The notes under the pieces: generated by a model
Told to the model about the DNA's origin: nothing
The model's input: only the letters and a program-made list of their open reading frames with translations
Databases searched by the model: none
Shown here: positions 24,585-48,608 of the stretch, piece by piece
Numbering within the stretch: the first letter of the stretch is position 1
Layout: the number at the start of each line of letters is the position of its first letter
Origin: Oscillospiraceae bacterium
GTDB lineage: Bacteria; Bacillota; Clostridia; Oscillospirales; Oscillospiraceae
NCBI GenBank assembly: GCA_017398725.1
Contig: JAFQFA010000020.1
Coordinates: 1-49,943 of the forward strand
DNA: 49,943 nt
Direction of reading: 5' to 3'
Program-made: the position numbers and the translations under genes

Positions 24585-24605
24585 TTTGAACACCTCTTAA
24601 AATAC

Positions 24606-24633
24606 GCAAGGGGCGGACATTGTCCGCCCTTGC
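24606..24633. repeat. Hairpin in the argG-argH gap
   Basis: GCAAGGGGCGGACA pairs with TGTCCGCCCTTGC with one bulged G. It has no T run in the transcribed direction, so it should not terminate. The core GGGGCGGACA-TGTCC resembles the GTAGGGGCGGACA-type palindromes common between clostridial genes. It probably protects the argG message or is a degenerate REP. Confidence 0.55.
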
Positions 24634-24644
24634 AAAGATGGATT

Positions 24645-25865
24645 TTACAGCTTGCCCTGCTCCCGCAGTGCCTGCACCTGCGTGGGCAGACCCCACAGAT
24701 TGATGAAGCCTTCTGCCTGCTTCTGGTCGTAATCACTCTCGTCGAAGGTTACCAGACTCTCGGAGTACAGGGTGTAGGGAGAGGTGGTGCCGGCGGGAAT
24801 GATGTTGCCCTTGTAGAGCTTCAGCTTTACAGTGCCGGTAACGAACTTGTTGGATTCGTTGGCGAAGGCGGTCAGCGCCTCCTGCAGGGGGGAGTACCAC
24901 TTGCCGTTGTAGATCAGATCGGCGTAGTCCACAGCCAGCTTCTGCTTGGTGTGCAGGGTGTCCTTGTCGATGGTGATCATCTCCAGCTGGTTGTGGGCAA
25001 AGTACAAAATGGTGCCGCCGGGGGTCTCGTATACGCCCCGGTCCTTCATGCCTACCAACCGGTTTTCCACGATGTCGATGATGCCGATGCCGTTGGCACC
25101 GCCGATTGCATTGAGCTTCTCAATGATCTTGGAAGCCTTCATCTTCTCACCGTTCAAAGCTACGGGAGCGCCGGCTTCAAAGTCAATGGAAACATAGGTG
25201 GGTTCGTCGGGAGCCTGCATGGGGGAGACGCCCATTTCCAAGAAACCGGGCTTTTCGTACTGAGGCTCGTTGGCGGGATCTTCCAGATCCAGACCTTCGT
25301 GGCTCAAGTGCCACAGGTTCTTATCCTTGGAATAGTTGGTTTCCCGGCTGATCTTCAGAGGAATGTTGTGGGCCTCGGCGTAGTCGATCTCCTGCTCTCT
25401 GGACTTGATGTCCCACTCACGCCAAGGGGCGATGATCTTCATATCGGGAGCAAACCGCTTAATAGCCAGCTCAAACCGGACCTGATCGTTGCCCTTGCCG
25501 GTAGCACCGTGGCAGACGGCATCCGCACCTTCGGCCAGCGCGATCTCCGCCAGCTTCTTGCCGATGACAGGACGGGCAAAAGCGGTGCCCAGCAGGTAAG
25601 TTTCGTACTTGGCATCCATCTTCATGGCGGGAACGATGATCTCGTCCACCATCTCATCGATAAGATCTGCCACGATCAGCTTGGAAGCGCCGGTCTTCAG
25701 TGCCTTCTCTTCCAGACCCTCCAGTTCGTCAGCCTGACCGACGTTGGCGGCAAAGGCGATCACTTCGCAATTATTATAGTTTTCCTTCAGCCAAGGGATG
25801 ATGATAGATGTATCCAGACCACCGGAGTAGGCCAAAACAACTTTTTTGATATCCTGATTATTCAT
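24645..25865 (-). CDS. argG: Argininosuccinate synthase
   Basis: 406 residues from ATG 25865, placed 7 nt after GGAGG; an upstream TTG five codons earlier would swallow the ribosome site. It joins citrulline and aspartate with ATP to give argininosuccinate, as a cytosolic tetramer. The PP-loop SGGLDTS is at 14-20, followed by the family blocks [17 protein letters not shown] and [15 protein letters not shown]. First gene of argG-argH-argF under a consensus promoter; an ARG-box-like sequence lies just upstream of the -35. Confidence 0.97.
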
Positions 25866-25906
25866 TGTAAATTCCTCCAAAGAATTTATTCTTTAATATG
25901 CACTGA

Positions 25907-27006: not shown

Positions 27007-27036
27007 GCCCCGGAGCATCGCTCCGGGGCTTTTTTT
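27007..27036 (+). terminator. Rho-independent terminator after the YwaF-like gene
   Basis: GCCCCGGAGC-ATC-GCTCCGGGGC followed by seven T. A perfect 10-bp stem, 16 nt after the stop codon; it separates this gene from the polysaccharide operon. Confidence 0.95.
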
Positions 27037-27140: not shown

Positions 27141-27169
27141 TTGATTTTGACAGACAAATAGTGTATAAT
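27141..27169 (+). promoter_or_regulatory. Promoter of the polysaccharide operon
   Basis: TTGATT (27141-27146), 17 bases, TATAAT (27164-27169). A TTGACA six bases further on is too close to the -10 (11 bp) to serve. The leader to the first ATG at 27257 is about 80 nt. No other strong promoter or terminator was seen within the next 22 kb, consistent with one long transcript. Confidence 0.7.
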
Positions 27170-27256: not shown

Positions 27257-27901
27257 ATGTACGCGAAGTTTTTTAAGCGTTTGCTGGACTTTGTCTTATC
27301 CCTCATGGCACTTTTGGTGCTGTGGCCGGTGCTGCTGATATTGATGGTTCTGGGGTGGATCAAAATGAAGGGCAACCCCTTCTTCACCCAAGACAGACCC
27401 GGTAAGGACGAAAAGATCTTTAAGCTGATCAAATTCCGCTCCATGACTTGCGAGAAGGATGCAGAAGGCAATTATCTTCCTGACGATCAGCGGCTGACCA
27501 AGTACGGTCGCATCCTGCGCTCTACCTCTTTGGATGAATTGCCGGAACTGATCAATATTTTAAAAGGGGATATGTCCATCGTCGGCCCCCGGCCTTTGCT
27601 GCCGGAGTACCTGCCGTACTATACATATGAAGAAAACCGCCGCCATGAAATCAGACCCGGTTTGACGGGGTGGGCGCAGGTCAACGGACGGAATATTACG
27701 GCATGGGATGAGCGCCTGCAGCAGGATGTCTATTATGTGGATCACTGTAGTTTTCTGTTGGACTGCAAGATCTTTTGGATGACGGTGGTCAAGACCGTCA
27801 AGCGTTCGGATATTATCGTGGGAAAACAGCACGGTGAAGGTCATGGACGGCTGGATGTGGTTAGAAGCGAAATGGCAAAGAAAGAGGAGATATCGCTTTG
27901 A
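27257..27901 (+). CDS. Initiating sugar phosphotransferase (PglC-type, monotopic)
   Basis: 214 residues from ATG 27257 after TAGGAGTG. This size fits small monotopic phosphoglycosyl transferases of the PglC type, which move a sugar-1-phosphate from a UDP-sugar to undecaprenyl phosphate and so start glycan assembly at the inner face of the membrane. One N-terminal hydrophobic re-entrant helix (about 12-35) carries a Pro near its centre (LVLWPVLLIL). The catalytic Asp-Glu dyad is at 93-94 in STSLDELPEL, followed by MSIVGPRPLLPEYLPYY and RPGLTGWAQVNGRN. First gene of the operon; its TGA overlaps the next start. The transferred sugar is unknown. Confidence 0.93.
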   Translation: MYAKFFKRLLDFVLSLMALLVLWPVLLILMVLGWIKMKGNPFFTQDRPGKDEKIFKLIKFRSMTCEKDAEGNYLPDDQRLTKYGRILRSTSLDELPELINILKGDMSIVGPRPLLPEYLPYYTYEENRRHEIRPGLTGWAQVNGRNITAWDERLQQDVYYVDHCSFLLDCKIFWMTVVKTVKRSDIIVGKQHGEGHGRLDVVRSEMAKKEEISL

Positions 27902-29175
27902 GAAAACTGTTGGTTTTGGGAAGTGACTACGGCACTGTTCAGGTTGTTAAAGAAGCAAAACAACTTGGGCTGTACACCATTGTGGCGGACCTTATGAACA
28001 ACTCGCCTACAAAAGCTTTGGCAGATGAAGCATGGCTGATCAGCACAACAGAAATTGACGAATTGGCCGAACGGTGTCGCAGAGAAGGCGTTACCGCGGT
28101 TATGTTTGGTGCCAGCGATTTTAATATCTCTAATGCCAGATTGCTGTGCAAACGGCTTAACCTGCCCATTTACTGCGATAACGATCAAACGTGGGCGCTT
28201 GTCCGAGATAAGCGCACGTTTAAGAATGTGTGTCGTGAGGTTGGCGCCAATGTGGCGCAGGACTATTATTTGGATGACCGGCTTGCGGAAGAAGATCTTG
28301 CCCTTGTGCAGTATCCTGTTGTTTGCAAACCTTCCGATAAGAGCGGAAACCGGGGCATGAGTTATTGCGATAACAAAGAAGCCTTGTGTGCCGGTTACCG
28401 GAATGCCCGGGAAATATCCGACCAACCCATCATCATAGAGCGCCGACTGCGTGGACCGGAATATAACATACACTATGTTTTGGCGGATGGGGAGGCCAGA
28501 TTACTATATTTGAATGCAACCCACCATCAGCCGGGACAGCCGGAGAATCTTTATTCATTTAAGTGTACCACCTCCTCCTACTTGAAGCAGTATATCGAGG
28601 AAATGAACGAGGCAGCCAAACGCGTGATCCGCAAGATGGGCTGCAAGGAAGGCATCGTATGGTTTGACTGCATACGGGACACTGACGGGAAATTTTATTT
28701 CTTGGAAATGGGCTACCGATTTGGCGGTGTAATGACCTATGCGCCTTATGAGAAAGTTCATGGGTTTAATACGGTGCGCTGGATGCTGGAATGTGCGTTA
28801 GGCGTAAAGCATACAAAGGAAGACCTCCCTGAGGAGCTGAATCGGGCGCTTACCGGATGCGCGGCATCGTACCATCTGTTTTCTGTAGAGGCCGGTAAAA
28901 TAGACCGCATTGAGGGCATGGATGCGTTGCAGCAAATGCCGAATGTGTATATTGATATGCCCAAACGCGAGGGGGATTCCCTGCGCTTGCTGACGAATTC
29001 CGGCCTGCTTGGAATCTACGGTGAAAATGCAGATGAACTGTGTGAAACGGTTGCCCGGATCAATGAAATACTGCGCATTTATAACGAATCTGGCGATAAT
29101 ATGTTTATCTATTTCAACGATTTCGAGACGATTCGAAAGGAATACTACAAGGGGTTGAAGGAATTTGGTTGCTGA
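27898..29175 (+). CDS. ATP-grasp protein 1 (carboxylate-amine ligase-like)
   Basis: 425 residues from a TTG start at 27898, which overlaps the previous TGA and follows GAGGAG by about 8 nt. Members of this fold activate a carboxylate with ATP and join it to an amine or thiol. It has an N-terminal pre-ATP-grasp Rossmann region (KLLVLGSDYGTVQVVKEAKQLG), a central lid with VVCKPSDKSGNRGMS, and a metal region IVWFDCIRDTDGKFYFLEMGYRFGG. The canonical E-x-N-x-R is here Glu270-Met-Gly-Tyr-Arg274, so the metal-binding Asn is missing. The enzyme may use a different metal site or be a non-catalytic partner. Followed at once by the PLP enzyme and ATP-grasp 2, suggesting one amino-acid-attaching module. 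Confidence 0.82.
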   Translation: MRKLLVLGSDYGTVQVVKEAKQLGLYTIVADLMNNSPTKALADEAWLISTTEIDELAERCRREGVTAVMFGASDFNISNARLLCKRLNLPIYCDNDQTWALVRDKRTFKNVCREVGANVAQDYYLDDRLAEEDLALVQYPVVCKPSDKSGNRGMSYCDNKEALCAGYRNAREISDQPIIIERRLRGPEYNIHYVLADGEARLLYLNATHHQPGQPENLYSFKCTTSSYLKQYIEEMNEAAKRVIRKMGCKEGIVWFDCIRDTDGKFYFLEMGYRFGGVMTYAPYEKVHGFNTVRWMLECALGVKHTKEDLPEELNRALTGCAASYHLFSVEAGKIDRIEGMDALQQMPNVYIDMPKREGDSLRLLTNSGLLGIYGENADELCETVARINEILRIYNESGDNMFIYFNDFETIRKEYYKGLKEFGC

Positions 29176-30115
29176 TCATACCCAGCTGATGACACCGATC
29201 CAACGCCTAGGCGATTGGGATAACAATTGTTTGTGGGTTAAGCGGGAGGATTTTATTCCGTTTTCCTTTGGCGGTAATAAGGCTCGGAAGGCGCAGTTGT
29301 TTTTCTTGGAAATCGATGCAGGAAAACACGATGCGGTAGTGACTTACGGTTCGAGCAGTTCAAACCATTGCCGTGTGGTTGCCAATATGGCTGCGCAGCG
29401 GGGGATCGGCTGTTACATCATCTCTCCGGAAGAAGCTTCAGAAGAGACATTTAATACGAACTTGATGCGCCTCTTCCGGGCGGAAATTACCGTTTGTCCG
29501 GTGGAAAAGGTATCCGCTACCATCGACGCGGTTTGCAACACCCTCCGCGGCCGGGGAATGAATCCGTATTTCATACCGGGCGGCGGCCATGGAAATACTG
29601 GAACGCAGGCATATGTGGATTGCTACGAAGAAATCGAAGCGTTTGAGAAGCAGCAGAGCATACGGTTTGACTATATTTTCTTGGCCTCCGGAACGGGAAC
29701 GACCCATGCCGGGCTAGTCTGCGGACAACTGATCCGTTGTGACGACAGGAAAATTGTTGGAATCAGCATAGCCAGACGCAATCCCAGAGGCCGCGATGTT
29801 GTGTTGGAAAGCATTCGGCAGTATTTAATGGCAAAAGGCGGATGCTTTGATGATGCGACCATCGAGGACGCAACGGTTTTTTTGGATGATTACATAGGTG
29901 AAGGTTATGGAAGATACTTGGACAGTGTTGGAAAAACCGTCGATATCGTTATGAAAAAATATGGCATACCTCTTGATGCTACCTATACCGGAAAGGCATT
30001 CTGGGGAATGGCGGACTATATAGAAAAAAATGACATAAGGGATAAAAATATTCTTTTTATCCATACTGGCGGAACACCTTTGTTTTTCGATTATTTAAAG
30101 AGCAAAGAGCGATGA
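29165..30115 (+). CDS. PLP-dependent D-cysteine desulfhydrase / ACC deaminase-family enzyme
   Basis: 316 residues from TTG 29165, overlapping the previous gene by 11 nt; ATG at 29189 is an alternative. A fold-type II PLP enzyme: the Schiff-base Lys39 is in SFGGNKARKAQ, the phosphate/substrate block is TYGSSSSNHCRVVANMAA, and the glycine loop is FLASGTGTTHAGL. Family members eliminate or deaminate small amino acids (D-cysteine, ACC, D-serine). Inside a glycan operon beside ATP-grasp ligases and an opine dehydrogenase, it more likely makes or isomerises an amino acid, or supplies a 2-keto acid, for attachment to sugar (inference). Length is slightly under the 325-340 usual for the family. Confidence 0.85.
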   Translation: MVADHTQLMTPIQRLGDWDNNCLWVKREDFIPFSFGGNKARKAQLFFLEIDAGKHDAVVTYGSSSSNHCRVVANMAAQRGIGCYIISPEEASEETFNTNLMRLFRAEITVCPVEKVSATIDAVCNTLRGRGMNPYFIPGGGHGNTGTQAYVDCYEEIEAFEKQQSIRFDYIFLASGTGTTHAGLVCGQLIRCDDRKIVGISIARRNPRGRDVVLESIRQYLMAKGGCFDDATIEDATVFLDDYIGEGYGRYLDSVGKTVDIVMKKYGIPLDATYTGKAFWGMADYIEKNDIRDKNILFIHTGGTPLFFDYLKSKER

Positions 30116-30130
30116 AAGAGGGAGCATACC

Positions 30131-31102
30131 ATGAATATTTTGATTTTAAGCGCCGGCACCCGGAATAAGATCGTGCAGTATTTCAAAAGAGCCGTTGGGC
30201 AGACCGGAAATATTGTGGCTACCGACATGAGCGAACTGGCACCAGCGGTATACGAGGCAGACAAGTTCTACAAAGTGCCCCGTATGACAGATCCCGGTTA
30301 TATGGATGTGATCTTCGATATTTGCCGCAAGGAGAGAATCGGTGCGGTGTTGACCCTGATCGATCCGGAGCTTTCCTTGCTGGCAAAGCATAAGGCGGAT
30401 TTCGAAGCGATGGGTGTTACTGTGATCGGCAGCTCTTATGAACTGTGCGAGCGGGCACTGGACAAAATGGAGATGTTCAACTGGCTCACCCAGCGGGGCT
30501 ATGCCTGCGCCAAGAGCTATGTGGACAAGGAAGCCTTTTATGCGGATGTGGAAGCGGGCCTTGCTACTTATCCGGTATTTGTCAAGCCGGTTTGCGGCAG
30601 CGCCAGCATCTCTATCTCCAAGGTTTATGATCGGGAAACGGTGGAAATGCTGTTTGCCCACAGCGATAACCTGATGATCCAGCAGTTCATGGACGGACAG
30701 GAAATCGGCGCCGATGTCTACATCGATATGGTTTCCGGCGAAGTGGTATCCATCTTCACCAAGAAGAAGATCGTTATGCGTGCCGGCGAGACCGACAAGG
30801 CGGTATCTTTTAAGGATGAAAAACTGTTTGATCTGATCACAAAGTTTGTAAAAGAAAGCGGCTGGTCCGGACAGATCGATATCGATATCTTCGATGTGGA
30901 CGGTACTTATTACATTTCCGAGGTAAACCCCCGGTTTGGTGGCGGTTACCCCCATGCCTATGAGTCCGGTTGCGACCACATGACATTGATTTTGAACAAT
31001 TTGAACGGAAAAGCAAATGCCCCCCAGATCGGCAACTATGAAGAGGGTATCTACATGATGAAATACAACGAACTGATGATCAGAAAGGGAAATGGCGTAT
31101 GA
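30131..31102 (+). CDS. ATP-grasp protein 2 (CarB-like ligase of polysaccharide loci)
   Basis: 323 residues. The N-terminal domain starts MNILILSAGTRNKIVQYFKRA, and the ATP-binding block is FVKPVCGSASISISKVY. The intact metal triad ISEVNPRFGGGYPHAYESG closely resembles the carbamoyl-phosphate-synthase-like ATP-grasp proteins common in exopolysaccharide clusters. Unlike ATP-grasp 1 it keeps the E-V-N-P-R motif, so it should be active. Expected reaction: ATP-driven amide or ester formation between a carboxylate and an amine. 15 nt after the PLP enzyme, with GAGGGAG before the ATG, and an ATGA overlap with the next gene. Confidence 0.9.
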   Translation: MNILILSAGTRNKIVQYFKRAVGQTGNIVATDMSELAPAVYEADKFYKVPRMTDPGYMDVIFDICRKERIGAVLTLIDPELSLLAKHKADFEAMGVTVIGSSYELCERALDKMEMFNWLTQRGYACAKSYVDKEAFYADVEAGLATYPVFVKPVCGSASISISKVYDRETVEMLFAHSDNLMIQQFMDGQEIGADVYIDMVSGEVVSIFTKKKIVMRAGETDKAVSFKDEKLFDLITKFVKESGWSGQIDIDIFDVDGTYYISEVNPRFGGGYPHAYESGCDHMTLILNNLNGKANAPQIGNYEEGIYMMKYNELMIRKGNGV

Positions 31103-32190
31103 GAAGCGGCTTTAGAAAAAAATGGGACGATCTTGATTTGAAGGTCGAAGCTACCTTTAGAAAATTTAATAACCGCAGGAAAGCGAAGCTGCGCCTAAAG
31201 CGTATGAACGGCGGCTTTGCCTGCGACAAGGAATACAAAGAGATCGTTTTGCCCTACTGGAAAAAGTACGGCTATAAGCCGGGTAAAATATGGTACAAGA
31301 TCTACTCCAACCGGGAGCAAAAGGTGGATCCCAGATATATTCCGGACGATCTGTATTACGGCGAGCTGATTCCTTATTTCAGCAACTCTCAGTTCCGGCG
31401 TTTTGGCGAGGACAAGTGCTACCACGATGTGTGGATCCCGGATATCAAAAGACCGCAAACCATCTGCAAAAACATCGCCGGTGTCTATTATGATGCGGAT
31501 ATGAATCCCGTCACCAAGGCACAAGCCATTGCGATGGTGCTGGCTTTTGAGGATGAGTTTTTGATCAAGCCCTCCATTGACACCGGAGAGGGGCGCCTGA
31601 TTCAGTTCTTCACCAAGGAAACAGCTACGGAAGCGTCTGTGGAAGCTGCTTTCGACGGCATGAAGGCAAACTTTATTTTGCAGGCTGCAGTGAAGCAGCA
31701 TCCGGTACTTTCCCAGCTGAACCCCTCCTCTTTGAACACCATGCGGGTGATCACCTTCTTCTTTGAGGGTGAGGTACATGTGCTGTCCTGCATTCTGCGT
31801 GTTGGCGCACCCAATTCCAAGGTGGATAACGTGGGAGCCGGCGGCTATGCCTGCGCCATCAAGGCCGACGGCAGCCTGAACGACAAGGCGGTTAACAGAA
31901 AGGCCGAATGGGTAGAGGAAACCAGCACCGGCATCAAGTTTGCGGGCATTCGGCTTCCGGAGTTTGAGCGGGTGGTGGACGCTGTCAAGAAAGCCCACCG
32001 GCGTATGGCACATTTTAAGCTGATCGGTTGGGATATGTCTGTGGATGTGGACAACGATCCCGTATTTATTGAGTACAACACCTGTCCCGGCGCCAATCAG
32101 AACACCAGCGGGCCTACCTTTGGTGATCTGACCGAGAAGGTGCTGGAAGAATATTTTATCACCCGGACATTGGAAACTGCTCAGAATTGA
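31099..32190 (+). CDS. Sugar-transfer-associated ATP-grasp protein (ATP-grasp 3)
   Basis: 363 residues. The pattern fits the family named sugar-transfer associated ATP-grasp: a basic helical N-terminus (FRKFNNRRKAKLRLKRM), then DVWIPDIKRPQTICKNIAGVYYD. The ATP site follows with FLIKPSIDTGEGRLIQFF, LNPSSLNTMRVITFF and the metal block FKLIGWDMSVDVDNDPVFIEYNTCPGAN, where E-Y-N replaces the classical ExN. These proteins occur with capsule genes but have no proven reaction; ligation of an amino acid or lactate-like acid to a sugar carboxyl or amine is plausible. Coupled to ATP-grasp 2 by ATGA. Confidence 0.88.
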   Translation: MRSGFRKKWDDLDLKVEATFRKFNNRRKAKLRLKRMNGGFACDKEYKEIVLPYWKKYGYKPGKIWYKIYSNREQKVDPRYIPDDLYYGELIPYFSNSQFRRFGEDKCYHDVWIPDIKRPQTICKNIAGVYYDADMNPVTKAQAIAMVLAFEDEFLIKPSIDTGEGRLIQFFTKETATEASVEAAFDGMKANFILQAAVKQHPVLSQLNPSSLNTMRVITFFFEGEVHVLSCILRVGAPNSKVDNVGAGGYACAIKADGSLNDKAVNRKAEWVEETSTGIKFAGIRLPEFERVVDAVKKAHRRMAHFKLIGWDMSVDVDNDPVFIEYNTCPGANQNTSGPTFGDLTEKVLEEYFITRTLETAQN

Positions 32191-32286
32191 CCGTCAACAG
32201 CGGATTTGACCGCCGGTGTGTTTGCGACAATTGCTACGGGTTACATTAGATCAAAAGGTTTTTTCGAAAACAGAGGGAGTTTTACA

Positions 32287-33396
32287 TTGAAGATTGCAAT
32301 TTTAGGAGCGGGAAATGCCGGCTGCGCCCTTGCAGCGGACCTGACCATGCATGGGCATGAGGTCACGGTTGTCAAAACCTCTCATGCAATGCATGATGAA
32401 AATTATGATTATTTGCTGGAACATAATGGGGAAATGACCCTGCATGAATTTGGCGAGGTGAAGACTGCCTATATTCACAAGGTTACCCGTGATGTTGCTG
32501 CCGTAAAGGGTATGCAGATCGTTATTATCAATACCCAGTCCAATTACCATGAGCAGCTTATTCAAAGGGTGGCGCCCCATCTGGAAGATGATCAGATTCT
32601 GCTGGTTAATCCCGGCTATCTTTCCACGGCCTATGTGCTGAAGTACTGCCCTGACAAGAAGATCATGATCGCAGAAGCCCAGAGTGCGTTTATCGATGGA
32701 CGCATCACAGAACCGGGACATTTCCGTGTGGGCTTCCGCAATGTAAGAAATCCCATTGGCATATATCCCGCCTACCGGAGGGAAGAGGCAATCGCCAAGC
32801 TGGATCAGCTGGATGAGCGCCTTGTATATCTGGATTCTGTGGTAGAGGCGGCGCTGCACAATCCCAATCTGATCGTACATACTGTGGGTTCTGTAATGAG
32901 CATTCCCCGTATTGAAAAATCCCATGGGGACTTTTGCATGTATCACGAGGCATATACCCGGGAAAATCCGGCAACTTGGCGAATCCTCGAAGCGCTGGAC
33001 GCAGAGAAGATGGATGTTCTGGATGCGTTGGGATTTGAGCGGCTACCTTATGTAGAGGCGTGCAAATACCGCAATTCTCTGGACGAGAGTATTGATGCCA
33101 AAGAAGTGTTCCTGAATTATGCGGAAATGCCCACCAGAGCCAAGGGCCCCACAAAGGTGGATTCCCGCTATATTTCCGAGGATGTGCCGCAGGGACTGGT
33201 CATGTTGGAGGCATTGGGAAAAGCGCTGAATGTGCCTACCCCCATTTGCACCGCCCTGATCGAGATCGCAACGGTGGCGCTAGGCAGAAGCATGCGGGCC
33301 GAAGGCAGAACACCCCAGCGACTTGGCTATGAAAACATAGGGAAAATTATTGCGGATGCGAAAAAAACAGAAGAGCGAGCCGTGAGTGTGTTATGA
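32287..33396 (+). CDS. Opine dehydrogenase-family enzyme (octopine/nopaline type)
   Basis: 369 residues from a TTG at 32287, 7 nt after GAGGGAG; a longer frame from 32206 has no ribosome site. The N-terminal Rossmann motif is GAGNAG (KIAILGAGNAGCALAADL); the C-terminal all-helical octopine-dehydrogenase domain includes NLIVHTVGSVMSIPRIE, CKYRNSLDESIDAKEVF and TKVDSRYISEDVPQGLV. The family reduces the imine between a 2-keto acid (pyruvate) and an amino acid to an N-(1-carboxyalkyl)amino acid. In this operon it could make an opine building block for the glycan, with ATP-grasp enzymes attaching it. Some family members act on other 2-hydroxy or keto acids, so the product is inferred. Confidence 0.87.
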   Translation: MKIAILGAGNAGCALAADLTMHGHEVTVVKTSHAMHDENYDYLLEHNGEMTLHEFGEVKTAYIHKVTRDVAAVKGMQIVIINTQSNYHEQLIQRVAPHLEDDQILLVNPGYLSTAYVLKYCPDKKIMIAEAQSAFIDGRITEPGHFRVGFRNVRNPIGIYPAYRREEAIAKLDQLDERLVYLDSVVEAALHNPNLIVHTVGSVMSIPRIEKSHGDFCMYHEAYTRENPATWRILEALDAEKMDVLDALGFERLPYVEACKYRNSLDESIDAKEVFLNYAEMPTRAKGPTKVDSRYISEDVPQGLVMLEALGKALNVPTPICTALIEIATVALGRSMRAEGRTPQRLGYENIGKIIADAKKTEERAVSVL

Positions 33397-34496
33397 AAAT
33401 ACTGTATGTAACAACAATTGGTGGAACGATGTCCTTTTTCAAGAGCTTTATCCGTGAGCTGATCGAGGCGGGACATACCGTAGATATTGCGACACACGAA
33501 AGCGCAGGAAGCAACGCACTGGACTATTTCCGGGAACTGGGATGCGCAGTGTATCCAATCGACTTTTCCCGTTCTCCCCTGAACAAAGGAAACCTGCGGG
33601 CAATCAAGCAGCTGGAAAAGCTGGTGCAGGGGCAAGGTTATGATATTGTCCATTGCCACACCCCTGTTGCGGCAGCCTGCACCCGGGTCGCCTGCCGGAA
33701 AGCCCGGAAACAGGGCGTTAGAGTGTTCTATACGGCTCACGGTTTCCATTTCTATAAGGGTGCACCACTAAAAAACTGGCTGATATTCTATCCAATTGAA
33801 AAGCTTTGCGCCGGTTGGACGGATGTACTTATTACCATTAACGGGCAGGATTATGCTTTGGCGCAGAAGAAACTGCGGGCGAAGAAAGTATGCTATATGC
33901 CCGGTGTCGGCATCAATGTAGAGAATTTCGCCAATGCCCAAGTAGATCCCGCCGCAAAACGGGGGGAGCTGGGAATTCCGGAGGAGGCCCGGCTGTTGCT
34001 GTCCGTGGGTGAACTCAATGAAAATAAAAATCATCAGGTGGTTTTGCGGGCAATGGCTCGGCTGAACGACCCGAATATGCACTATATGATTGCAGGCAAT
34101 GGTAGTTGGCAGGATCGGCTTTTGCAGTTGGCAAAAGAACTGGGCTTGGAAAAGCAGTTCCATCTGCTGGGTTTCCGTCGGGATGTGGCGGAGCTTTGCA
34201 AAACTGCCGATGTGTACATCCATTGCTCCTACCGGGAAGGCTTGCCGGTTTCTGTGATGGAAGCCCGGGCTGCCGGAATCCCCGTTGTTTGCTCCGATAT
34301 TCGGGGTAATGGCGATTTGATCAACGAAGCCTTCCGCTTCCAACCCGGCGATCCGGAGGGGCTGATCAAAGCCATTTCCAAAGTGGGTGATCGCGAGCAG
34401 GCCGCAAAAGCCTGCGCGGAGGGCATGCTCCCGCTGGAGCAGATGAGCAAGGATGCCATTAACGCACAGCTTTTGGAGCTGTATTTGTCTGTTTGA
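33393..34496 (+). CDS. GT4 glycosyltransferase 1
   Basis: 367 residues; ATG overlaps the previous TGA. A GT-B fold with an N-terminal acceptor domain (KILYVTTIGGTMSFFKSFIRELIEAGH, HCHTPVAAA, FYTAHGFHFYKGAP) and a C-terminal nucleotide-sugar domain with the EX7E motif in REGLPVSVMEARAAGIPVV. The TAHGFHFY block and overall look resemble EpsD/CapM-type transferases that act early on lipid-linked oligosaccharide. Cytosolic face of the membrane. Linkage and donor sugar cannot be read from sequence. Confidence 0.92.
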   Translation: MKILYVTTIGGTMSFFKSFIRELIEAGHTVDIATHESAGSNALDYFRELGCAVYPIDFSRSPLNKGNLRAIKQLEKLVQGQGYDIVHCHTPVAAACTRVACRKARKQGVRVFYTAHGFHFYKGAPLKNWLIFYPIEKLCAGWTDVLITINGQDYALAQKKLRAKKVCYMPGVGINVENFANAQVDPAAKRGELGIPEEARLLLSVGELNENKNHQVVLRAMARLNDPNMHYMIAGNGSWQDRLLQLAKELGLEKQFHLLGFRRDVAELCKTADVYIHCSYREGLPVSVMEARAAGIPVVCSDIRGNGDLINEAFRFQPGDPEGLIKAISKVGDREQAAKACAEGMLPLEQMSKDAINAQLLELYLSV

Positions 34497-34543: not shown

Positions 34544-35581
34544 ATGAAGATTCTGCATTTGTTACAAACGAATCACTTCTCCGGTGCCGAAAATGTGGCG
34601 TGCCAAATCATTGATATGATGAGCGCCTATCCTCAATATGAAATGGTGTATTGCAGCCCGGACGGTCAGATCCGCAAAGCGCTGCAGGATCGGTGCGTGA
34701 CCTTTGTTCCTATAGAAAACTGGTCGGTCGCCGGCCTGAGAGAAATTATCCGGGAGGAAAGACCGGATGTCATTCATGCCCACGACCGGGGCGCTACCTT
34801 CTTGGCGGCATTGGCCTGCGGGAGAATACCGCTGATTTCTCATTTCCATAATAATGCGGTGGATTCCCGCAAGGTAAACGCCAGATCCATCGGTTATTAC
34901 TTGGCAGCCTTGAAAGCACGACATATTTTCTGGGTCTCTCAAAGCGCATTTGAGGGCTACCGGTTCCATAAGCTGCTGCGGCATAAAAGTACGGTTTTAT
35001 ATAATATTATCAACTTGGATGCGGTGTATCGCCGAATGGCGCAGGATAGCGCTGCGTATTCCTATGATATTGTATATCTTGGCCGTATGAGCTACCAGAA
35101 GAATCCCCAGCGGTTGATGCGGGTTTTGGCTAAAATTGCAGAGCAAAAGCCGGATCTGAAAGCGGCAGTTGTAGGCAATGGAGAACTGGAAGCGGTCACC
35201 AAGGCCGAATGCAAGCGCCTTGGCATTGAAGAGAATGTGGCGTTCTTGGGCTTTTGCGGAAATCCGCTGAAACTTTTGCATGATGCAAAGCTGATGCTGA
35301 TGGTTTCCCGCTTTGAGGGAACGCCGATGTGTGCACTGGAAGCAATGGCACTGGGTGTTCCAATTGTTAGCACACCGACGGACGGATTGTGCGAGTTGGT
35401 GGTAGACGGACAGACAGGCTATCTGCATACCGATGATGATGTTTTGGCGGAATCCTGCCTGAAGATCCTTTCTTCGGAGGAACTGTACAAGGCGATGAGC
35501 GAGGCATCTTTGGAAAGATCCCGGGATATGAACGATGCGCAAAGCTATTGTGAAACTTTGAACGGCGCATACCAGAAGTAA
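34544..35581 (+). CDS. GT4 glycosyltransferase 2
   Basis: 345 residues. N-terminal MKILHLLQTNHFSGAENVACQII (the S/T-G-A-E block of GT4), HAHDRGATF and SHFHNNAVDSRKVNARSIG; C-terminal donor domain with YLGRMSYQKNP and EX7E in FEGTPMCALEAMALGVPIV. A cytosolic retaining glycosyltransferase adding one residue of the repeat unit. Located 48 nt after glycosyltransferase 1. The donor is unknown. Confidence 0.92.
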   Translation: MKILHLLQTNHFSGAENVACQIIDMMSAYPQYEMVYCSPDGQIRKALQDRCVTFVPIENWSVAGLREIIREERPDVIHAHDRGATFLAALACGRIPLISHFHNNAVDSRKVNARSIGYYLAALKARHIFWVSQSAFEGYRFHKLLRHKSTVLYNIINLDAVYRRMAQDSAAYSYDIVYLGRMSYQKNPQRLMRVLAKIAEQKPDLKAAVVGNGELEAVTKAECKRLGIEENVAFLGFCGNPLKLLHDAKLMLMVSRFEGTPMCALEAMALGVPIVSTPTDGLCELVVDGQTGYLHTDDDVLAESCLKILSSEELYKAMSEASLERSRDMNDAQSYCETLNGAYQK

Positions 35582-35615
35582 GGCCGACCACTTGCTGGCA
35601 GAAGGAGTGATCATA

Positions 35616-37817: not shown

Positions 37818-39119
37818 ATGGCAAAAAAAGATCGAAACCTATTGATCCTTATGGCGGTAGGACTGAGTATGTTGCTGGTCCTGCGTGATATTTTGGATGT
37901 TTCCATTTCAAAATATCTGTTTTTGGTGTATATTGTCCTTTTTATGGCAGTGGCGCAGTACAAAGTGATGGTGCACATGGTATGCTTCATCTTGCCGCTG
38001 GTATGCGGTTTGCCGGGAACATATATCATGCCTTGCGCACTGGGATTACTGCTTTTCAAAAAGGAGAGAGTAAATTTAAAATTTTTACTCTCAATTATTA
38101 TACTGATGTTGTTGGAACTGGTGGCCAGTTTTTGGTATCCCAATCAGAATTTGACGTTGATTGTCCAGTATGTTTCCTTTGCCAGCATCTTGCTCTATTT
38201 AATATATGATGACACAGCGATAGACAATCTTATGTGCGTGCGTATGTTCTTTCTAGGCACGATATTGCTTTGCGGAGTTATCATTGTTACCGGCTTGCAA
38301 GAAGCCCCCGATAACTGGCTTGAACTGTTTGAAAAAGGCCAGTTCCGTTTCGGTCAAACACATTGGCAGCAAGGGACAGGTTTGGTACTTAACGTAAACG
38401 CAAATTCCTTGGCATATTATAGTGCGGCTGGTTTTGCTTGTGGTTTGCTGTTTGTTGACCAAAGCATAGGAAAGAGAAAGTTGTTTTGGCTGGCAGGCCT
38501 GTTGGTGTGTATTATTGCAGGCTTTCTTACCCTTTCCAGAACATGGATCATTACTGTATTTATTATTCTGATTCTGTATACTGCCAGCAAGCTGCGCAGC
38601 CCAAAGCAATTTTTGACTCTGCTGCTCGTACTGGCTGTGTTGGCTACTGTTGCCGTTGTATATTTCAATCAGAATCCGGAATTGCTTGCCGGCATCACAA
38701 CCCGACTGGAAGACACAGATGTGGAGGGCGGCAACGGAAGAGTGGAGCTGTTCTTCCAATATATGGATATATATTCGAAAAATATCCGGTATATTCTGCT
38801 TGGCATGGGTGTCACCCAGTACCGTGCGATCAGTGAAATTAATTCCTTGCACAACGGCACACAGCAGATTTTGGTGTGCTGCGGCCTTGTTGGCTTCGTT
38901 GTATACATGATCGCTTTGGTCGGGTCGGTGTGGGGAGCTTGCAAAGGAAAGAAATGCGCAATGATTTATTGGCTGCCGCTTCTTGCCGTGGTGTTTTTTG
39001 TGCAGTCAATCCAATTTTTAAATCCCATGATGTTGATGCTGCCCTATGCGGCCGGTGTGTATGCATTAAAGGCAGGAGGGGAAAAGGATGAAGAGCTTTC
39101 TCATAACAGTGGACACTGA
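37818..39119 (+). CDS. Wzy-type polymerase / O-antigen ligase-like membrane protein
   Basis: 433 residues with about 11-12 hydrophobic segments and one larger outward loop (about 285-340, LAGITTRLEDTDVEGGNGRVELFFQYMDIYSKN), the layout of Wzy/WaaL-family proteins. The first half contains FLVYIVLFMAVAQYKVM; the later AGFLTLSRTWIITVFIILIL carries the Arg-containing conserved element seen before the large loop. It should join lipid-linked repeat units at the outer face of the membrane. It overlaps the next gene by 32 nt. Confidence 0.85.
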   Translation: MAKKDRNLLILMAVGLSMLLVLRDILDVSISKYLFLVYIVLFMAVAQYKVMVHMVCFILPLVCGLPGTYIMPCALGLLLFKKERVNLKFLLSIIILMLLELVASFWYPNQNLTLIVQYVSFASILLYLIYDDTAIDNLMCVRMFFLGTILLCGVIIVTGLQEAPDNWLELFEKGQFRFGQTHWQQGTGLVLNVNANSLAYYSAAGFACGLLFVDQSIGKRKLFWLAGLLVCIIAGFLTLSRTWIITVFIILILYTASKLRSPKQFLTLLLVLAVLATVAVVYFNQNPELLAGITTRLEDTDVEGGNGRVELFFQYMDIYSKNIRYILLGMGVTQYRAISEINSLHNGTQQILVCCGLVGFVVYMIALVGSVWGACKGKKCAMIYWLPLLAVVFFVQSIQFLNPMMLMLPYAAGVYALKAGGEKDEELSHNSGH

Positions 39120-42325: not shown

Positions 42326-43801
42326 ATGAACAGTGAAAAAAAGCTTTCGCAAAAGGAGTCCATACTTTCAGGGGTAGGTTGGTCTTATGCTGCACGCATT
42401 ATGACACAAGCAATTACTCTGTTGATATCAATTGTCCTTGCCCGCATATTATCCCCGGATCACTATGGTCTCATATCTATCGTCACAGTATTTATCACCA
42501 TTGGCGATGCGCTGGTTGTGGGTGGCTTCGGCAATGCTCTGGTGCAGAAAAAAGAGACAGAGGAAATTGATTTCAACTCTATTTGTTGGGTTAGTATAAC
42601 TGTGTCTTTTGTTGTTTATTGTGTTTTATTCCTCAGTGCGCCGCTGGTCAGTGCATTTTATTCAATGCCCCAATTGACCCCCATTATTCGGGTTATGGGT
42701 ATTAAATTTGTTTTCTCGGCGTTCAATTCCGTGCAGCATGCCTATGTGCAGAAAAACATGATGTTCCGCAAACTGTTCTATTCTTCTGTAGGTGGATCTG
42801 TTGTATCTGCGGCAGTCGGCATTGCCATGGCACTCTCCGGCTTTGGAATATGGGCGCTGGTGGCACAGTATATATCCCTTTCCGTCATTAATACACTGGT
42901 GTTGTTCTGTACCATTGCGTGGAAGCCAAAATTGGAGATATCATGGAAAAGTGTCAAACAGCTTTGGAACTACGGTGCCAAAGTGCTTGGCGCAACTATG
43001 GTATTCACCATTCGGGACAATATTCGCACCTTGCTGGTTGGCAAGCGTTTCTCTTCCGCTGATCTGGCCCATTATAATCAAGGCCAAAAGTATCCCTCTC
43101 TTTTGGTGACAGATATTGTTGCCTCCTTGGGAAATGTTCTTTTTCCGCTGATGTCAAAGAATCAGTCTAATGTTGGCAGGGTCAAGCAATTGATGCGGGA
43201 TGCTATTTGTGTGAGTAGCTACATTTTGACGCCTGCAGTGCTTGGTATTTTCGCAGTCGCCGACACATTTGTACAAGTTGTTTTAACGGAAAAATGGATG
43301 CCCTGCGTCCCATTTTTGCGGATTATGTGTCTTGTATATGTTACCAGAAGCCTGAGCACGATTTTTCAAAAATCGCTGTTGGCACTGGGGAAAAGCAATT
43401 TGAACCTGATACATGAAACCCTTACATCTCTCACGACATTAGGCTTGTTGTTTGTGGCAGTCTTCGCATTTAACAGTGTAATACTGATTGCACTCAGCCA
43501 GATTGCGGTGATGATGCTTGGCGTGAGCCTCCAAATGATTTGGGTTAGGAAATATTTGGGTTACGGTTTCCGGGAGATGGCTCGGGATTATTTGCCCTCT
43601 GCATTTATGTCGATTGCAATGGCGGTCGTTGTGATTTTGATCGGAACCATTCCTATGCCCATGCTGATGAAGCTTGTGATTCAGATTCTGGCAGGGGTCA
43701 TCATCTATGTGGGATTGTCGGTTGCTTTGAAAAATCCTTCGTTTATTAAGCTGAAGAAGTTGCTTATGGAACTTATAAATAGAAATAAAGCGAAAATATG
43801 A
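42326..43801 (+). CDS. Wzx-type oligosaccharide flippase
   Basis: 491 residues with about 12-14 membrane segments. The N-terminus GVGWSYAARIMTQAITLLISIVLARILSPDHYGLISIVTVF is the standard MATE/MOP-superfamily polysaccharide exporter signature. It would turn the finished undecaprenyl-linked repeat unit to the outer face for the polymerase. The ATG follows the previous TAA directly (TAAATG). With the Wzy-type polymerase it defines a Wzx/Wzy pathway; no Wzz or tyrosine-kinase chain-length genes are in the window. Confidence 0.92.
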   Translation: MNSEKKLSQKESILSGVGWSYAARIMTQAITLLISIVLARILSPDHYGLISIVTVFITIGDALVVGGFGNALVQKKETEEIDFNSICWVSITVSFVVYCVLFLSAPLVSAFYSMPQLTPIIRVMGIKFVFSAFNSVQHAYVQKNMMFRKLFYSSVGGSVVSAAVGIAMALSGFGIWALVAQYISLSVINTLVLFCTIAWKPKLEISWKSVKQLWNYGAKVLGATMVFTIRDNIRTLLVGKRFSSADLAHYNQGQKYPSLLVTDIVASLGNVLFPLMSKNQSNVGRVKQLMRDAICVSSYILTPAVLGIFAVADTFVQVVLTEKWMPCVPFLRIMCLVYVTRSLSTIFQKSLLALGKSNLNLIHETLTSLTTLGLLFVAVFAFNSVILIALSQIAVMMLGVSLQMIWVRKYLGYGFREMARDYLPSAFMSIAMAVVVILIGTIPMPMLMKLVIQILAGVIIYVGLSVALKNPSFIKLKKLLMELINRNKAKI

Positions 43802-43826: not shown

Positions 43827-44900
43827 ATGCTTACACCCAATATTGATTTGAAAAACAAGACCATTCTGGTCACCGGTGCGGCCGGCTTTATCGGTGCCAA
43901 TCTGGTACTGGAGCTGCTGCGCACCGTCGAGCCGGTGACCGTCATCGGTCTGGATAACATGAACGACTACTACGATGTGTCCATCAAGGAATATCGACTG
44001 ACTGAGATCGTGCAGGAGGCGGCGAAGCATTCTGCCTCTAAGTGGGAATTTGTCAAAGGCAGTTTGGCGGATAAAGCCTTGGTGGACGGGCTGTTCCAAA
44101 AGTACGGCTTTGCCGTGGTCGTGAATCTGGCGGCACAGGCAGGTGTCCGGTATTCCATCACCAACCCGGATGTGTACATCGAAAGCAACATCATCGGCTT
44201 CTATAATATCTTGGAGGCCTGCCGGAACTATCCCGTGGAGCATCTGGTGTATGCCAGTTCCAGCTCTGTCTACGGCTCCAACAAGAAGGTGCCCTATGCC
44301 ACCGAGGATAAGGTGGACAACCCGGTATCTTTGTATGCCGCCACCAAAAAGTCCAACGAACTATTTGCCCATGCTTACAGTAAGCTCTATAACATTCCCT
44401 CCACCGGCCTGCGGTTCTTCACCGTCTACGGACCTGCCGGCCGCCCGGATATGGCGTATTTCGGCTTCACCAATAAGCTGCGGGAAGGGAAGACCATTCA
44501 GATCTTCAATTTTGGCAATTGTCAGCGGGACTTTACTTATGTGGATGACATCGTTACCGGCGTCAAGCATGTGATGTGCAATGCACCCGAGAAGAAAATC
44601 GGCGAGGACGGCCTGCCCATCCCGCCTTACCGGGTGTATAACATCGGCAACAATAGTCCTGAGAACCTTCTGGACTTTGTGGACATCCTGCAGCAGGAGT
44701 TGATCGCTGCCGGCGTATTGCCTGTCGATTATGATTTTGAAGCCCATAAGGAACTTGTTCCTATGCAGCCCGGCGATGTGCCTGTTACCTTTGCGGATAC
44801 CTCCGATCTGGAGCGGGATTTCGGTTTCAAACCTAGTACCTCCCTCCGGGAAGGCCTGCGCCGCTTCGCCAAGTGGTACAAGGAATTCTATATGGCATAA
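43827..44900 (+). CDS. NAD-dependent sugar epimerase (UDP-glucuronate 4-epimerase-like)
   Basis: 357 residues of the extended SDR family. Gly-rich loop TGAAGFIGANLVLELL at about 19-34, GLDNMNDYYDVSIKEYRL, a Ser in YASSSSVYGSNKKVP, and the catalytic Tyr170-x-x-x-Lys174 in SLYAATKKSNELFAHAY. The N-M-N-D-Y-Y-D and SNKKVP-type blocks are those of UDP-glucuronate 4-epimerases (giving UDP-galacturonate). A UDP-sugar 6-dehydrogenase that could supply its substrate is encoded at 47370. Strong AGGAGG before the ATG. GC-rich again after the AT-richer transferases. Confidence 0.88.
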   Translation: MLTPNIDLKNKTILVTGAAGFIGANLVLELLRTVEPVTVIGLDNMNDYYDVSIKEYRLTEIVQEAAKHSASKWEFVKGSLADKALVDGLFQKYGFAVVVNLAAQAGVRYSITNPDVYIESNIIGFYNILEACRNYPVEHLVYASSSSVYGSNKKVPYATEDKVDNPVSLYAATKKSNELFAHAYSKLYNIPSTGLRFFTVYGPAGRPDMAYFGFTNKLREGKTIQIFNFGNCQRDFTYVDDIVTGVKHVMCNAPEKKIGEDGLPIPPYRVYNIGNNSPENLLDFVDILQQELIAAGVLPVDYDFEAHKELVPMQPGDVPVTFADTSDLERDFGFKPSTSLREGLRRFAKWYKEFYMA

Positions 44901-46638: not shown

Positions 46639-47373
46639 ATGAAATGTTTGATCTTAGCGGCAGGCTACGCCACCCGGCTGTACCCCCTGACCGAAAATTT
46701 CCCTAAGCCCCTTTTAAAGGTGCAGGAGAAAACCATTCTGGATTGGCTGATGGATGATATCGAACAATCAGGGGAAGTGGACGAATACATTGTTATCTCC
46801 AACCATAAATTTGCTCACCAATTTGATGCTTGGGCAAAGGATAAAAAGAAAGTCACCGTGGTGGATGACGGTACGGAAAGCAACGAGACCCGCTTGGGCG
46901 CCGTAAAAGATATCCAGTTCACCATCGAAAAGTTGGGCTTGGATGATGATATGCTGGTGATCGCCGGCGACAATCTGCTGGACTTTTCGCTGACTCGTTT
47001 TATCCGCTACGCCAAGGATAAAAACGCCTCCTGCATCATGCGTTATTATGAGGCAAACGAGCAAAAGCTTTTGAAATGCGGCGTGGTTACCATCGACGAA
47101 AATGACCGGATCTTGCGGATGACGGAAAAATCTCCCAACCCGGAAACCCATTGGTGCTGCCCGCCTTTTTACTACTACACCAAAGGCGATGCCCGGTTGG
47201 TGGAACAGGGCATTAACGCCGGCTGCGGCACCGATGCCCCCGGCAGTTATATTGCATGGCTGTGCACCCAGACACCGGTGTATGCTATGGAAATGCCCGG
47301 CAGCCGGTATGATATCGGCAATTTAGAAAGCTATGAAAAAGTACAAACGGAATATAAGGGGATCTTAAAATGA
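46639..47373 (+). CDS. Sugar-phosphate nucleotidyltransferase
   Basis: 244 residues. The N-terminal signature [23 protein letters not shown] (G-x-G/A-T/R-L-x-P-L-T...P-K-P) marks the RmlA/GlmU-like pyrophosphorylase fold, which makes an NDP-sugar from sugar-1-phosphate and NTP. The metal Asp is in [11 protein letters not shown] and the sugar-binding Glu in [12 protein letters not shown]. Shorter than RmlA (about 290), closer to single-domain monomer types. It lies between a GHMP kinase and a UDP-sugar dehydrogenase, so it probably activates the kinase product. ATGA overlap with the next gene. Confidence 0.9.
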
Positions 47374-48608
47374 AAATTGCAGTTGCAGGCACTGGTTATG
47401 TAGGCCTGTCTATGGCAGTGCTGCTGGCGCAGCATAATGAGGTCACCGCGGTGGACATTGTCCCGGAAAAGGTGGATATGATCAACCGCCGGCAAAGTCC
47501 GATCCAAGATAACGAGATCGAAGAATATCTGGCGACCAAGTCTTTAAACCTCACCGCAACCTTGGATGCGGATGTAGCCTATAAGGATGCGGAGTTTGTT
47601 GTGATTGCTGCACCCACCAATTACGACACCCGGCAGAATAATTTTGATACCTCTGCGGTGGAGTCTGTGATCGAGAAGGTGATGCAGGTCAATCCCAATG
47701 CCATCATGATCATTAAATCCACCATTCCCGTAGGCTTTACCAAGTCCATCCGGGAAAAGACCGGTAGTGAAAATATCCTCTTCAGCCCGGAATTTCTGCG
47801 GGAAAGTCGGGCGCTGTACGATAACCTGTATCCCTCCCGGATCATCGTGGGTACCGTTACCGAAGATCCCCGGCTGATGAAAGCTGCCGAAACCTTTGCG
47901 GGCCTTTTGCAGCAGGGAGCGATCAAAGAAAATGTGGATACCCTGTTTATGGGCTTTACCGAGGCAGAGGCAGTGAAACTCTTTGCCAATACATATCTGG
48001 CCCTGCGGGTCAGCTTCTTTAATGAGCTGGATACCTATGCGGAAATGAAGGGCTTGAATACCCGCAATATCATTGATGGTATTTGCTTAGATCCCCGGAT
48101 CGGCGCCCATTACAATAACCCCTCCTTCGGTTACGGCGGCTACTGCTTGCCCAAGGACACCAAGCAGCTGCTGGCTAACTACAAGGATGTGCCGGAGAAC
48201 CTCATCGAGGCTATCGTGGAAGCCAACCGCACCCGGAAAGACTTTATTGCCGACCGGGTGCTGCTGAAAGCCGGCTACTATGGCTATCACGAGGATATGG
48301 ATTACGATCCCGGCAACGAGAAACAGGTGACCATCGGCGTGTACCGACTGACCATGAAGGCCAATTCCGATAATTTCCGCCAGAGCTCTATTCAGGGCGT
48401 GATGAAGCGGGTCAAGGCCAAGGGCGCAGAGGTTATTATCTACGAGCCCTCCTTGGAAGACGGCACGACCTTCTTTGGCAGCAAAGTCGTAAATGATTTG
48501 GAATCCTTCAAGGCCCAGTGCGATGCCATTGTTGCCAACCGGTATGACAGCTGCTTGGACGATGTGCAGGAAAAGGTCTATACCAGAGATTTGTTCCGCA
48601 GAGATTAA
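47370..48608 (+). CDS. ugd: UDP-glucose 6-dehydrogenase-type nucleotide-sugar dehydrogenase
   Basis: 412 residues. N-terminal NAD site [25 protein letters not shown], then VIAAPTNYD, the block KSTIPVGFT, and [23 protein letters not shown]. Nucleophile Cys259 is in [14 protein letters not shown]. It oxidises a UDP-hexose (most likely UDP-glucose) to the uronate with two NAD. Together with the epimerase at 43827 it should give UDP-glucuronate and UDP-galacturonate for an acidic polymer. The short UGD subgroup (about 390-415) fits in length. Confidence 0.93.

Follow-up and report, generated by a model that had tools for sequence, protein, structure and literature searches.

What do an opine dehydrogenase, a pyridoxal 5'-phosphate (PLP) enzyme and three ATP-grasp proteins make together inside a gene cluster for a surface glycan? 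The question arises from a stretch of 49,943 nucleotides of an Oscillospiraceae bacterium (GenBank assembly GCA_017398725.1, contig JAFQFA010000020.1; source genome 1.4 Mb, 66% complete), which is called the window hereafter. Five genes of a Wzx/Wzy cluster stand there with an initiating sugar-phosphate transferase on one side and glycosyltransferases on the other (Table 1): an ATP-grasp ligase (gene 1), a fold-II PLP enzyme (gene 2), a PylC-like ATP-grasp (gene 3), the sugar-transfer-associated ATP-grasp ATPgrasp_ST (gene 4, ST) and an opine dehydrogenase (gene 5, ODH). The original prediction treated all five as one block placing an opine or unusual amino acid, as an amide, on a uronic acid. 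We rate the chances as about even that genes 2 to 5 form a portable cassette making an opine-type (N-carboxyalkyl) aminoacyl group that is amide-linked onto the Wzx/Wzy repeat unit. This chemistry is read from the enzyme families; what is observed is which genes are present, their order and conservation, how they pair, and the residues of the active site.

The conserved four-gene unit

The order PLP–PylC–ST–ODH behind the transferase recurs at two further loci, L054 (RUG11797) and L055 (a metagenome-assembled genome (MAG) of Peptostreptococcaceae). The named MAGs carrying relatives of the cassette are labelled Ruminococcaceae, Peptostreptococcaceae and Blautia. Identities to the window proteins in L054 and L055, respectively, are 57 and 57% for the transferase, 57 and 61% for the PLP enzyme, 68 and 72% for the PylC-like protein, 72 and 70% for ST and 77 and 75% for ODH. 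The transferase just 5' of the block is 57–58% identical in L054, L055 and L056, and the ST of L056 is 61% identical to that of the window.

The comparison covered stretches of L054, L055/L129 and L056 with a match threshold of E 1e-5. Within them no match was found to gene 1, nor to the glycosyltransferases GT_a and GT_b, Wzy, Wzx, the pyruvyl transferase or the FrhB-like protein; GT_c and GT_d reached only 23–25% identity. The L054 contig stops before any flippase comes into view, and the L055 cluster has its own flippase together with a UDP-glucose 6-dehydrogenase (UGDH) 73% identical to that of the window. Since gene 1, the glycosyltransferases, Wzy and Wzx are without a close counterpart in the stretches compared, the conserved unit is, judged by these alignments, the four genes PLP–PylC–ST–ODH within otherwise different glycan clusters, and gene 1 is by the same comparison an accessory outside it. 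Five genes as one unit were thereby ruled out: the co-conservation expected of the whole block was found for genes 2 to 5 in L054 and L055 and fails for gene 1, unmatched in both. A GNAT acetyltransferase accompanies the PLP enzyme in several relatives, fused N-terminally in L054 and C-terminally in L053, and as a separate preceding gene in L055.

The association of ODH with ATP-grasp genes was examined against a control comprising all places from two ODH-driven searches (29 + 13, one own-genome duplicate dropped), in which four ATP-grasp profiles were sought within 1.5 kb of ODH and genomes were counted by hand. Of the 20 loci of the close ODH subfamily, 17 have an ATP-grasp within that distance, which by genome is 13 of 16; for distant ODHs the counts are 0 of 21 loci and 0 of 13 genomes. 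The Fisher p values are 7.5e-9 by locus and 1.1e-5 by genome, with tandem copies being non-independent, the ST profile having been trained on some of the tested loci, and contig ends cutting some flanks, among them those of L064 and L067, both misses. Two of the 17 positive loci hold ST fragments and one a TupA-like ATP-grasp. The four-gene order in two further genomes and this controlled link are more than chance would give.

The ODH subfamily is uncommon, occurring in 11 of 391 genomes of the class, own genome counted. A phylum-wide search at E 1e-90 found it in 1 of 199 genomes, which was the own genome, and collections of plasmid and phage records, searched with the window ODH at thresholds of E 1e-30 and 1e-20, gave no match. 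Among the distant opine dehydrogenases, three stand in tandem in one genome (G086, L050:7490-10912), and the 1.5 kb around them contain no ATP-grasp of the four types sought.

Separate occurrence of the two gene pairs

ST and ODH are also found as a pair. In L056 and L086 they lie in glycan clusters with another ATP-grasp immediately 5' (matched only weakly, at 23.6 bits, in L056), and L045 has an ODH beside a TupA-like ATP-grasp, without ST. Outside glycan clusters the order is ODH–ST–ODH in L046, L047, L080 and L082, and likewise in L048, where the first ODH is a fragment; it is ST–ODH in L049, L079 and L081 and ODH–ST in L051. L083 and L085 hold an ST fragment only, and L084 stops at the contig edge. 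The nine loci with the stand-alone pair occur in several families of the class, and no constant neighbour was seen at them; DUF362 was confirmed by Pfam in L082 only and recognised by eye in L080 and L084. Rfam scanning of 11 ODH loci gave nine matches (T-box, SAM, Moco and tRNA) at four different places or genes; no element was constant at ST/ODH among them.

The other half of the unit was followed through seven further genomes that encode a close PLP enzyme; two came from a first search, whose ten weaker matches were set aside, and five from a second. A PylC-like gene lies in the same stretch in G066, G092, G409 and G429 and is absent from the stretches of G436 and G597; in G593 the PLP gene is truncated by the contig end. 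Eight PLP–PylC loci were compared in all: the window, L052, L053, L054, L055, L109, L113 and the Escherichia coli IncR plasmid NZ_LR890610.1 (L115). A DegT-type gene is present in five of the eight (in L109 split into two open reading frames (ORFs)); four have a GNAT, either as a fusion or as a neighbouring gene. The examined stretches of L052, L053, L109, L113 and the plasmid have PLP–PylC without ST–ODH.

On the plasmid the genes stand in the row 4,6-dehydratase, rfbA, lipopolysaccharide biosynthesis protein, DegT, GNAT, PLP enzyme, ATP-grasp and glycosyltransferase. The PLP enzyme and the PylC-like ATP-grasp are 36 and 32% identical to those of the window, adjacent and in the same order; the 17 features annotated there, in a gene table that is incomplete, include neither ST nor ODH. 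The plasmid DegT shares 65–69% identity with a portion of DegT genes from chromosomes, and many of these bear the name vioA (among 40 listed matches of 171). Such surroundings are consistent with the attachment of an N-acetylated amino acid to a 4-amino-4,6-dideoxy sugar. Transposase genes flank the sugar cassette on both sides, and its part from DegT to the ATP-grasp is covered to at least 80% on plasmids of 4 of the 5,426 complete genomes of E. coli.

Phylogenetic reconstruction placed the ODHs of the window, L045, L054, L055 and L056, from genomes of different families by their labels, in one clade (support 100/100). The stand-alone L051 ODH fell outside it and was left unplaced. Five stand-alone rows formed a group (98/98) of the ODHs upstream of ST where this is visible, ten rows a second group (88/92) of those downstream of ST, and the ODHs of L087 and L088 paired apart from the other groups. 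In the ST tree, whose bootstrap had not settled, the window, L054, L055 and L056 clustered together (100/100), as did nine stand-alone STs (100/100), with the ST of L086 placed elsewhere. Both trees fit a horizontal spread of the cassette.

The independent existence of both pairs suggests another reading, which we consider rather doubtful: PLP–PylC, with or without a GNAT, would aminoacylate an amino sugar, and ST–ODH would be a separate small opine-amide pathway captured by glycan operons, the opine being then a separate decoration or off the glycan altogether. The five PLP–PylC stretches without ST–ODH agree with such a split, as do the nine loci with ST and one or two ODHs but neither glycan genes nor a constant neighbour. 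It accounts less well for the direct joining of PLP–PylC to ST–ODH, in the same order, in the window, L054 and L055, or for the separation of the ODHs of five glycan loci from the stand-alone ones.

Enzyme families, predicted chemistry and acceptor

As a single pathway, genes 2 to 5 would act as follows. The PLP enzyme would prepare an amino acid. The PylC-like ATP-grasp, to judge from its family and the E. coli plasmid context, would activate a carboxylate and couple an amine, yielding an aminoacylated sugar or a dipeptide. ODH would then reductively join an alpha-keto acid onto a free amino group with NAD(P)H, as its family and kept catalytic residues suggest, and ST may form another amide, using the carboxylate of either the opine or the glycan. 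Gene 1 might add a strain-specific extra ligation, in place of which L054 and L055 have an N-acetyltransferase.

The assignment of gene 5 to the opine dehydrogenase family was borne out by its PF02317 domain (140 bits) and its catalytic residues. The N-terminal Rossmann part matches ApbA and NAD_Gly3P, the C-terminal part PF02317. Its nearest solved structure is 1bg6 (E 3.6e-28, 101.7 bits by single sequence), with whose His202 and Asp297 the residues His198 and Asp299 align. His198, Arg294 and Asp299 are kept in all 27 ODH rows, which include two distant ODHs and a copy from a phage-like contig; the catalytic role of the His, Asp and Arg follows the literature on 1bg6 and octopine dehydrogenase. 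The subfamily carries the signature VHTVG...EDVPQG.

Gene 2 belongs to the superfamily of D-cysteine desulfhydrase and 1-aminocyclopropane-1-carboxylate (ACC) deaminase, fold-II PLP enzymes, and its nearest structures are D-cysteine desulfhydrases. Its best NCBIfam model is CuyA (200 bits, cut-off 450), and it scored 172.7 bits against the TIGR01275 subfamily (cut-off 289.4) and 116.7 bits against ACC deaminase (cut-off 392). Equivalence to CuyA, D-cysteine desulfhydrase or ACC deaminase was rejected, as 0 of 12 NCBIfam families reached their cut-off. In an alignment with 7ysk, 4d97 and 4d8t, gene 2 keeps the PLP lysine and the HTGG and YxGKA motifs.

The predicted carboxylate-amine ligase content also proved sound, genes 1, 3 and 4 representing three ATP-grasp families. 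Gene 3 exceeds the cut-off of NF009406 widely (517.6 bits, cut-off 271), has 2pn1 as its best PDB match (E 1.8e-88) and carries the E-x-N metal ligands of ATP-grasp enzymes (SEVNPRFGG in the window row of the alignment). ST is the sole PF14397 match found in the host genome. By single sequence it gave zero PDB matches at E 0.1, and its best match by profile, to tubulin-tyrosine ligase, is weak. Its profile agrees neither with the PylC-like profile (probability 1.2%) nor with that of gene 1 (0.5%). A detectable relationship to TupA was rejected, since ST matches PF14397 only and not PF14305; against two TupA-like proteins, in a shallow comparison, the probability was 1.0%. The glycan cluster L057:7120-17724 contains five genes matching gene 4 at 28–39%, an ATP-grasp whose C-terminal domain is that of L-amino acid ligases and, by eye, a LicD-like protein.

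Gene 1 ranks 1ulz first and 4dim fourth in the PDB by single sequence; by profile, 4dim comes first and the L-amino acid ligases 3vot and 4wd3 further down. It does not qualify as an L-amino acid ligase, its likeness to 3vot and 4wd3 being by profile only and a Pfam scan finding no C-terminal domain PF18603. Among the NCBIfam matches listed (25 of 35), no model scored above its own cut-off.

Two acceptors are candidates for the group: an amino sugar, after the relatives of PLP–PylC, and a uronic acid, after the UGDH in the window and L055 and the TupA precedent. The amino sugar is suggested because a DegT-type gene occurs in five of the eight PLP–PylC loci. The window genome, 66% complete, yielded only two weak partial DegT matches on other contigs (best 34.3 bits), so an amino-sugar acceptor cannot be claimed for the window itself. 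For the uronic acid, the predicted dehydrogenase downstream in the cluster is present as a UGDH, with a 73% identical counterpart in the L055 cluster. In the L054 genome, on another contig, a UGDH (71%) adjoins a nucleotidyltransferase (63%), a pairing as in the window. The UGDH family was matched in 13 of 14 control genomes and in six of nine cassette genomes; those without a match are G139 and G430 (about 65% complete each) and G429 (96%). UGDH is weak evidence for a uronic acid because the family is near universal.

It is accordingly a tentative and rather unlikely special case of the cassette reading that the amino acid is amide-linked by its alpha-amine to a uronic acid, ODH alkylating the side-chain amine. 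The UGDH of the window and of L055, the latter together with a TupA-like ATP-grasp, and the gene pairing in L054 agree with it, as do, in the available parts of the sources, TupA-like uronate amidation in Campylobacter jejuni (PMC11800379) and the structure of Providencia rustigianii O14 (PMC10609480). Its difficulties lie in the distribution of UGDH, found in nearly all controls yet unmatched in three of the nine cassette genomes, in the DegT genes of the PLP–PylC loci and in an ST that is not detectably TupA-like by profile. What stands of the predicted amide-linked opine on a uronic acid is thus the opine and amide chemistry, as the best reading; the uronic acid becomes one of two acceptors.

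Several points weigh against the cassette reading as a whole. Nine loci have ST and ODH outside glycan operons, and since the pair stands alone there its product need not reach a glycan. L087 and L088 have an ODH without any of the four ATP-grasp types nearby (the upstream sequence of L087 is short), and the ODH of the glycan locus L086 is unplaced and does not join the other five glycan ODHs in their clade. The window cluster is without the DegT gene of five of the eight PLP–PylC loci, gene 1 is not co-conserved with genes 2 to 5, and no solved structure is significantly related to ST (zero matches at E 0.1, best profile E 0.034). The enzymes whose substrates are known are only distant relatives of the ODH subfamily (best PDB E 3.6e-28), which could reduce some other compound. 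An ODH acting on an unrelated substrate, for instance a keto-sugar acid or a hydroxy acid, and sharing its operon only because glycan clusters collect genes, seems to us quite improbable. A substrate is unreadable from sequence, there is a match of the Rossmann part to ketopantoate reductase as well (33.7 bits), and by eye the gene neighbourhoods in L087 and L088 have a catabolic look; set against this are the Octopine_DH domain, the kept His, Asp and Arg and the non-random ATP-grasp link.

Beyond the cassette reading, and with low confidence, the VHTVG...EDVPQG ODHs may be general partners of carboxylate-amine ligases, in an undescribed opine-amide chemistry with three outlets. In glycan clusters, at least two successive ATP-grasp ligases would build a non-ribosomal peptide side chain capped by an opine; ST and its one or two ODHs, where they stand free, would make a small metabolite across Clostridia; and in phages an ODH overlapping a fused amidoligase, DAM-like and GNAT gene would possibly serve DNA modification.

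A separate observation concerns the phage-like contig IMGVR_UViG_3300021255_002126 (IMG/VR; L114:5953-12552). Its ODH belongs to the same subfamily (42% identity) and overlaps by 4 bases a gene whose product combines a phrog_2443 amidoligase with DAM-like-phage2 and GNAT-phage-like domains. Genes for a ParB-like protein, an ATP-grasp resembling D-Ala ligase and the terminase subunits follow. The arrangement possibly serves to modify DNA or protein with an opine.

Locus layout and known systems

Table 1 Features of the window around the cassette, with scores of the family matches
Feature	Position	Strand	Evidence
Initiating sugar-phosphate transferase (Bac_transf)	27257..27901	+	PF02397 210.6 bits; ORF opens 27161, likely ATG 27257
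Gene 1, ATP-grasp ligase	27898..29175	+	CPSase_L_D2 46 bits, ATP-grasp_4 40.7 bits (Pfam)
Gene 2, fold-II PLP enzyme	29165..30115	+	PALP 117.5 bits; alternative start ATG 29189
Gene 3, PylC-like ATP-grasp (PRK12767 type)	30131..31102	+	PylC-like_N 135.6 bits
Gene 4, ATPgrasp_ST (ST), sugar-transfer-associated ATP-grasp	31099..32190	+	PF14397 121.7 bits, cut-off 31.4
Gene 5, opine dehydrogenase (ODH)	32287..33396	+	PF02317 Octopine_DH 140 bits, cut-off 30
Four GT4-type glycosyltransferases	33393-34496, 34544-35581, 35592-36701, 36726-37802	+	Pfam
Wzy-type polymerase	37818..39119	+	Wzy_C 36.7 bits, cut-off 31.7
Pyruvyl transferase and FrhB/FdhB-like pair	40041-42325	+	Pfam
Wzx-type flippase	42326..43801	+	Polysacc_synt_3 283.7 bits
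Nucleotide-sugar epimerase/dehydratase family	43827..44900	+	Epimerase 177.2 bits
UDP-glucose 6-dehydrogenase (UGDH) type, uronic acid supply	47370..48608	+	TIGR03026 323.4 bits, cut-off 189.8

The five plus-strand ORFs were confirmed at the positions originally described, and their families by Pfam, with a correction of the ODH start. The ODH frame is open from 32206, and its first conserved residues stand at the TTG at 32287 with a GGGAG box ahead; this TTG, rather than 32206, is most likely the start, which makes the gap between ST and ODH 96 bases. The other junctions from the transferase through gene 1, PLP and PylC to ST are -4, -11, +15 and -4 bases, and that between ODH and the first glycosyltransferase is -4. 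The tightly packed position between initiating transferase and glycosyltransferases thus holds as described, apart from the ST–ODH gap.

Ahead of the transferase lie a terminator-like hairpin (27007-27029) and a promoter-like site (27141-27169), which fit a transcription unit beginning at the transferase; scans of the window were near chance for both terminators (12 sites, 10.4 expected) and promoters (13 sites, 11.6 expected). An Rfam scan of the window gave zero matches. Third-position G+C is 0.54 in gene 1, 0.50 in gene 2, 0.63 in gene 3, 0.64 in gene 4 and 0.55 in ODH, a weak hint at a mosaic origin.

3' of Wzy follow, in order, an unidentified protein, the pyruvyl transferase, the FrhB-like protein, Wzx and the epimerase/dehydratase, and then a VanZ-like protein, a galactokinase-like kinase, a nucleotidyltransferase and the UGDH. 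The best NCBIfam model of the epimerase/dehydratase, dTDP-glucose 4,6-dehydratase, reached 158.3 bits with a cut-off of 365.1, and the UGDH-type protein scored 573.8 bits against PRK15057, below its cut-off of 757. The FrhB/FdhB-like protein directly 3' of the polysaccharide pyruvyl transferase carries ferredoxin-type motifs, within a glycan operon.

Two features lie upstream. An ORF of 2418 amino acids at 14448-21704 (plus strand), glycine-rich and with an N-terminal hydrophobic segment, likely encodes a giant surface protein; the opposite strand is open for 2518 codons across almost the same positions, and codon-position G+C favours the plus strand. Genes for ornithine carbamoyltransferase, argininosuccinate lyase and argininosuccinate synthase follow one another at 21940-25880 (minus strand), preceded by a perfect TTGACA-17-TATAAT at 25935-25907.

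Opine-type amino acids are known from a few O-antigens, and no description was found of genes for attaching such acids. The open-licence papers searched likewise yielded neither a gene cassette for opine-decorated glycans nor a paper joining opine dehydrogenase to ATP-grasp gene clusters, and the available part of PMC2824669 does not mention opines; as this coverage was confined to open-licence work, its support for novelty is weak. If the cassette reading is true, the four genes would give a sequence signature for finding opine-decorated glycans, extend this chemistry to Clostridia and supply a small, expressible enzyme set, and the stand-alone ST/ODH genes would mark an undescribed small-molecule pathway of Clostridia.

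In the staphylopine and pseudopaline clusters, an opine dehydrogenase performs the last step on an amino-acid conjugate, next to a nicotianamine-synthase-like enzyme and metal transporters. A metallophore cluster of this kind was rejected for the window, the 20 proteins of 26169-48608 giving no Pfam match to a nicotianamine-synthase-like enzyme or to metal export or import. The nearest solved relative of ODH, the N-(1-D-carboxyethyl)-L-norvaline dehydrogenase 1bg6, shares the aligned catalytic His and Asp but is distant, with MHPLPT around the catalytic His where the window ODH has VHTVGS; we know of no ligase partner for that enzyme. The E. coli plasmid resembles the window in its adjacent PLP and PylC-like genes and differs in having its own 4,6-dehydratase, RfbA, VioA-like aminotransferase and GNAT, and in the lack of ST and ODH noted above.

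Closer to the predicted amide is Cj1438C of C. jejuni, a TupA-like ATP-grasp of a capsule cluster that, according to the available part of the source, amidates capsule glucuronic acid with serinol-P or ethanolamine-P (PMC11800379). It likewise makes a glycan amide; in contrast to ATPgrasp_ST it belongs to the TupA family, and that part of the source mentions no opine dehydrogenase alongside. Two O-antigen structures, described in the available part of a review (PMC10609480), bear on the opine itself. Genes for neither group were found in the papers examined. In P. rustigianii O14, N-epsilon-(1-carboxyethyl)lysine is amide-linked to galacturonic acid (GalA), an opine-type amino acid on a uronic acid as originally guessed for the window; this group requires alkylation of the side-chain amine. 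The O-antigen of Providencia alcalifaciens O35, a Gram-negative structure, contrasts with the window cluster, which shows no DegT gene; it carries alanopine, N-(1-carboxyethyl)alanine, as an amide on Qui4N (4-amino-4,6-dideoxyglucose), and this opine on an amino sugar of a surface polysaccharide is the type of group that genes 2 to 5 are predicted to make.

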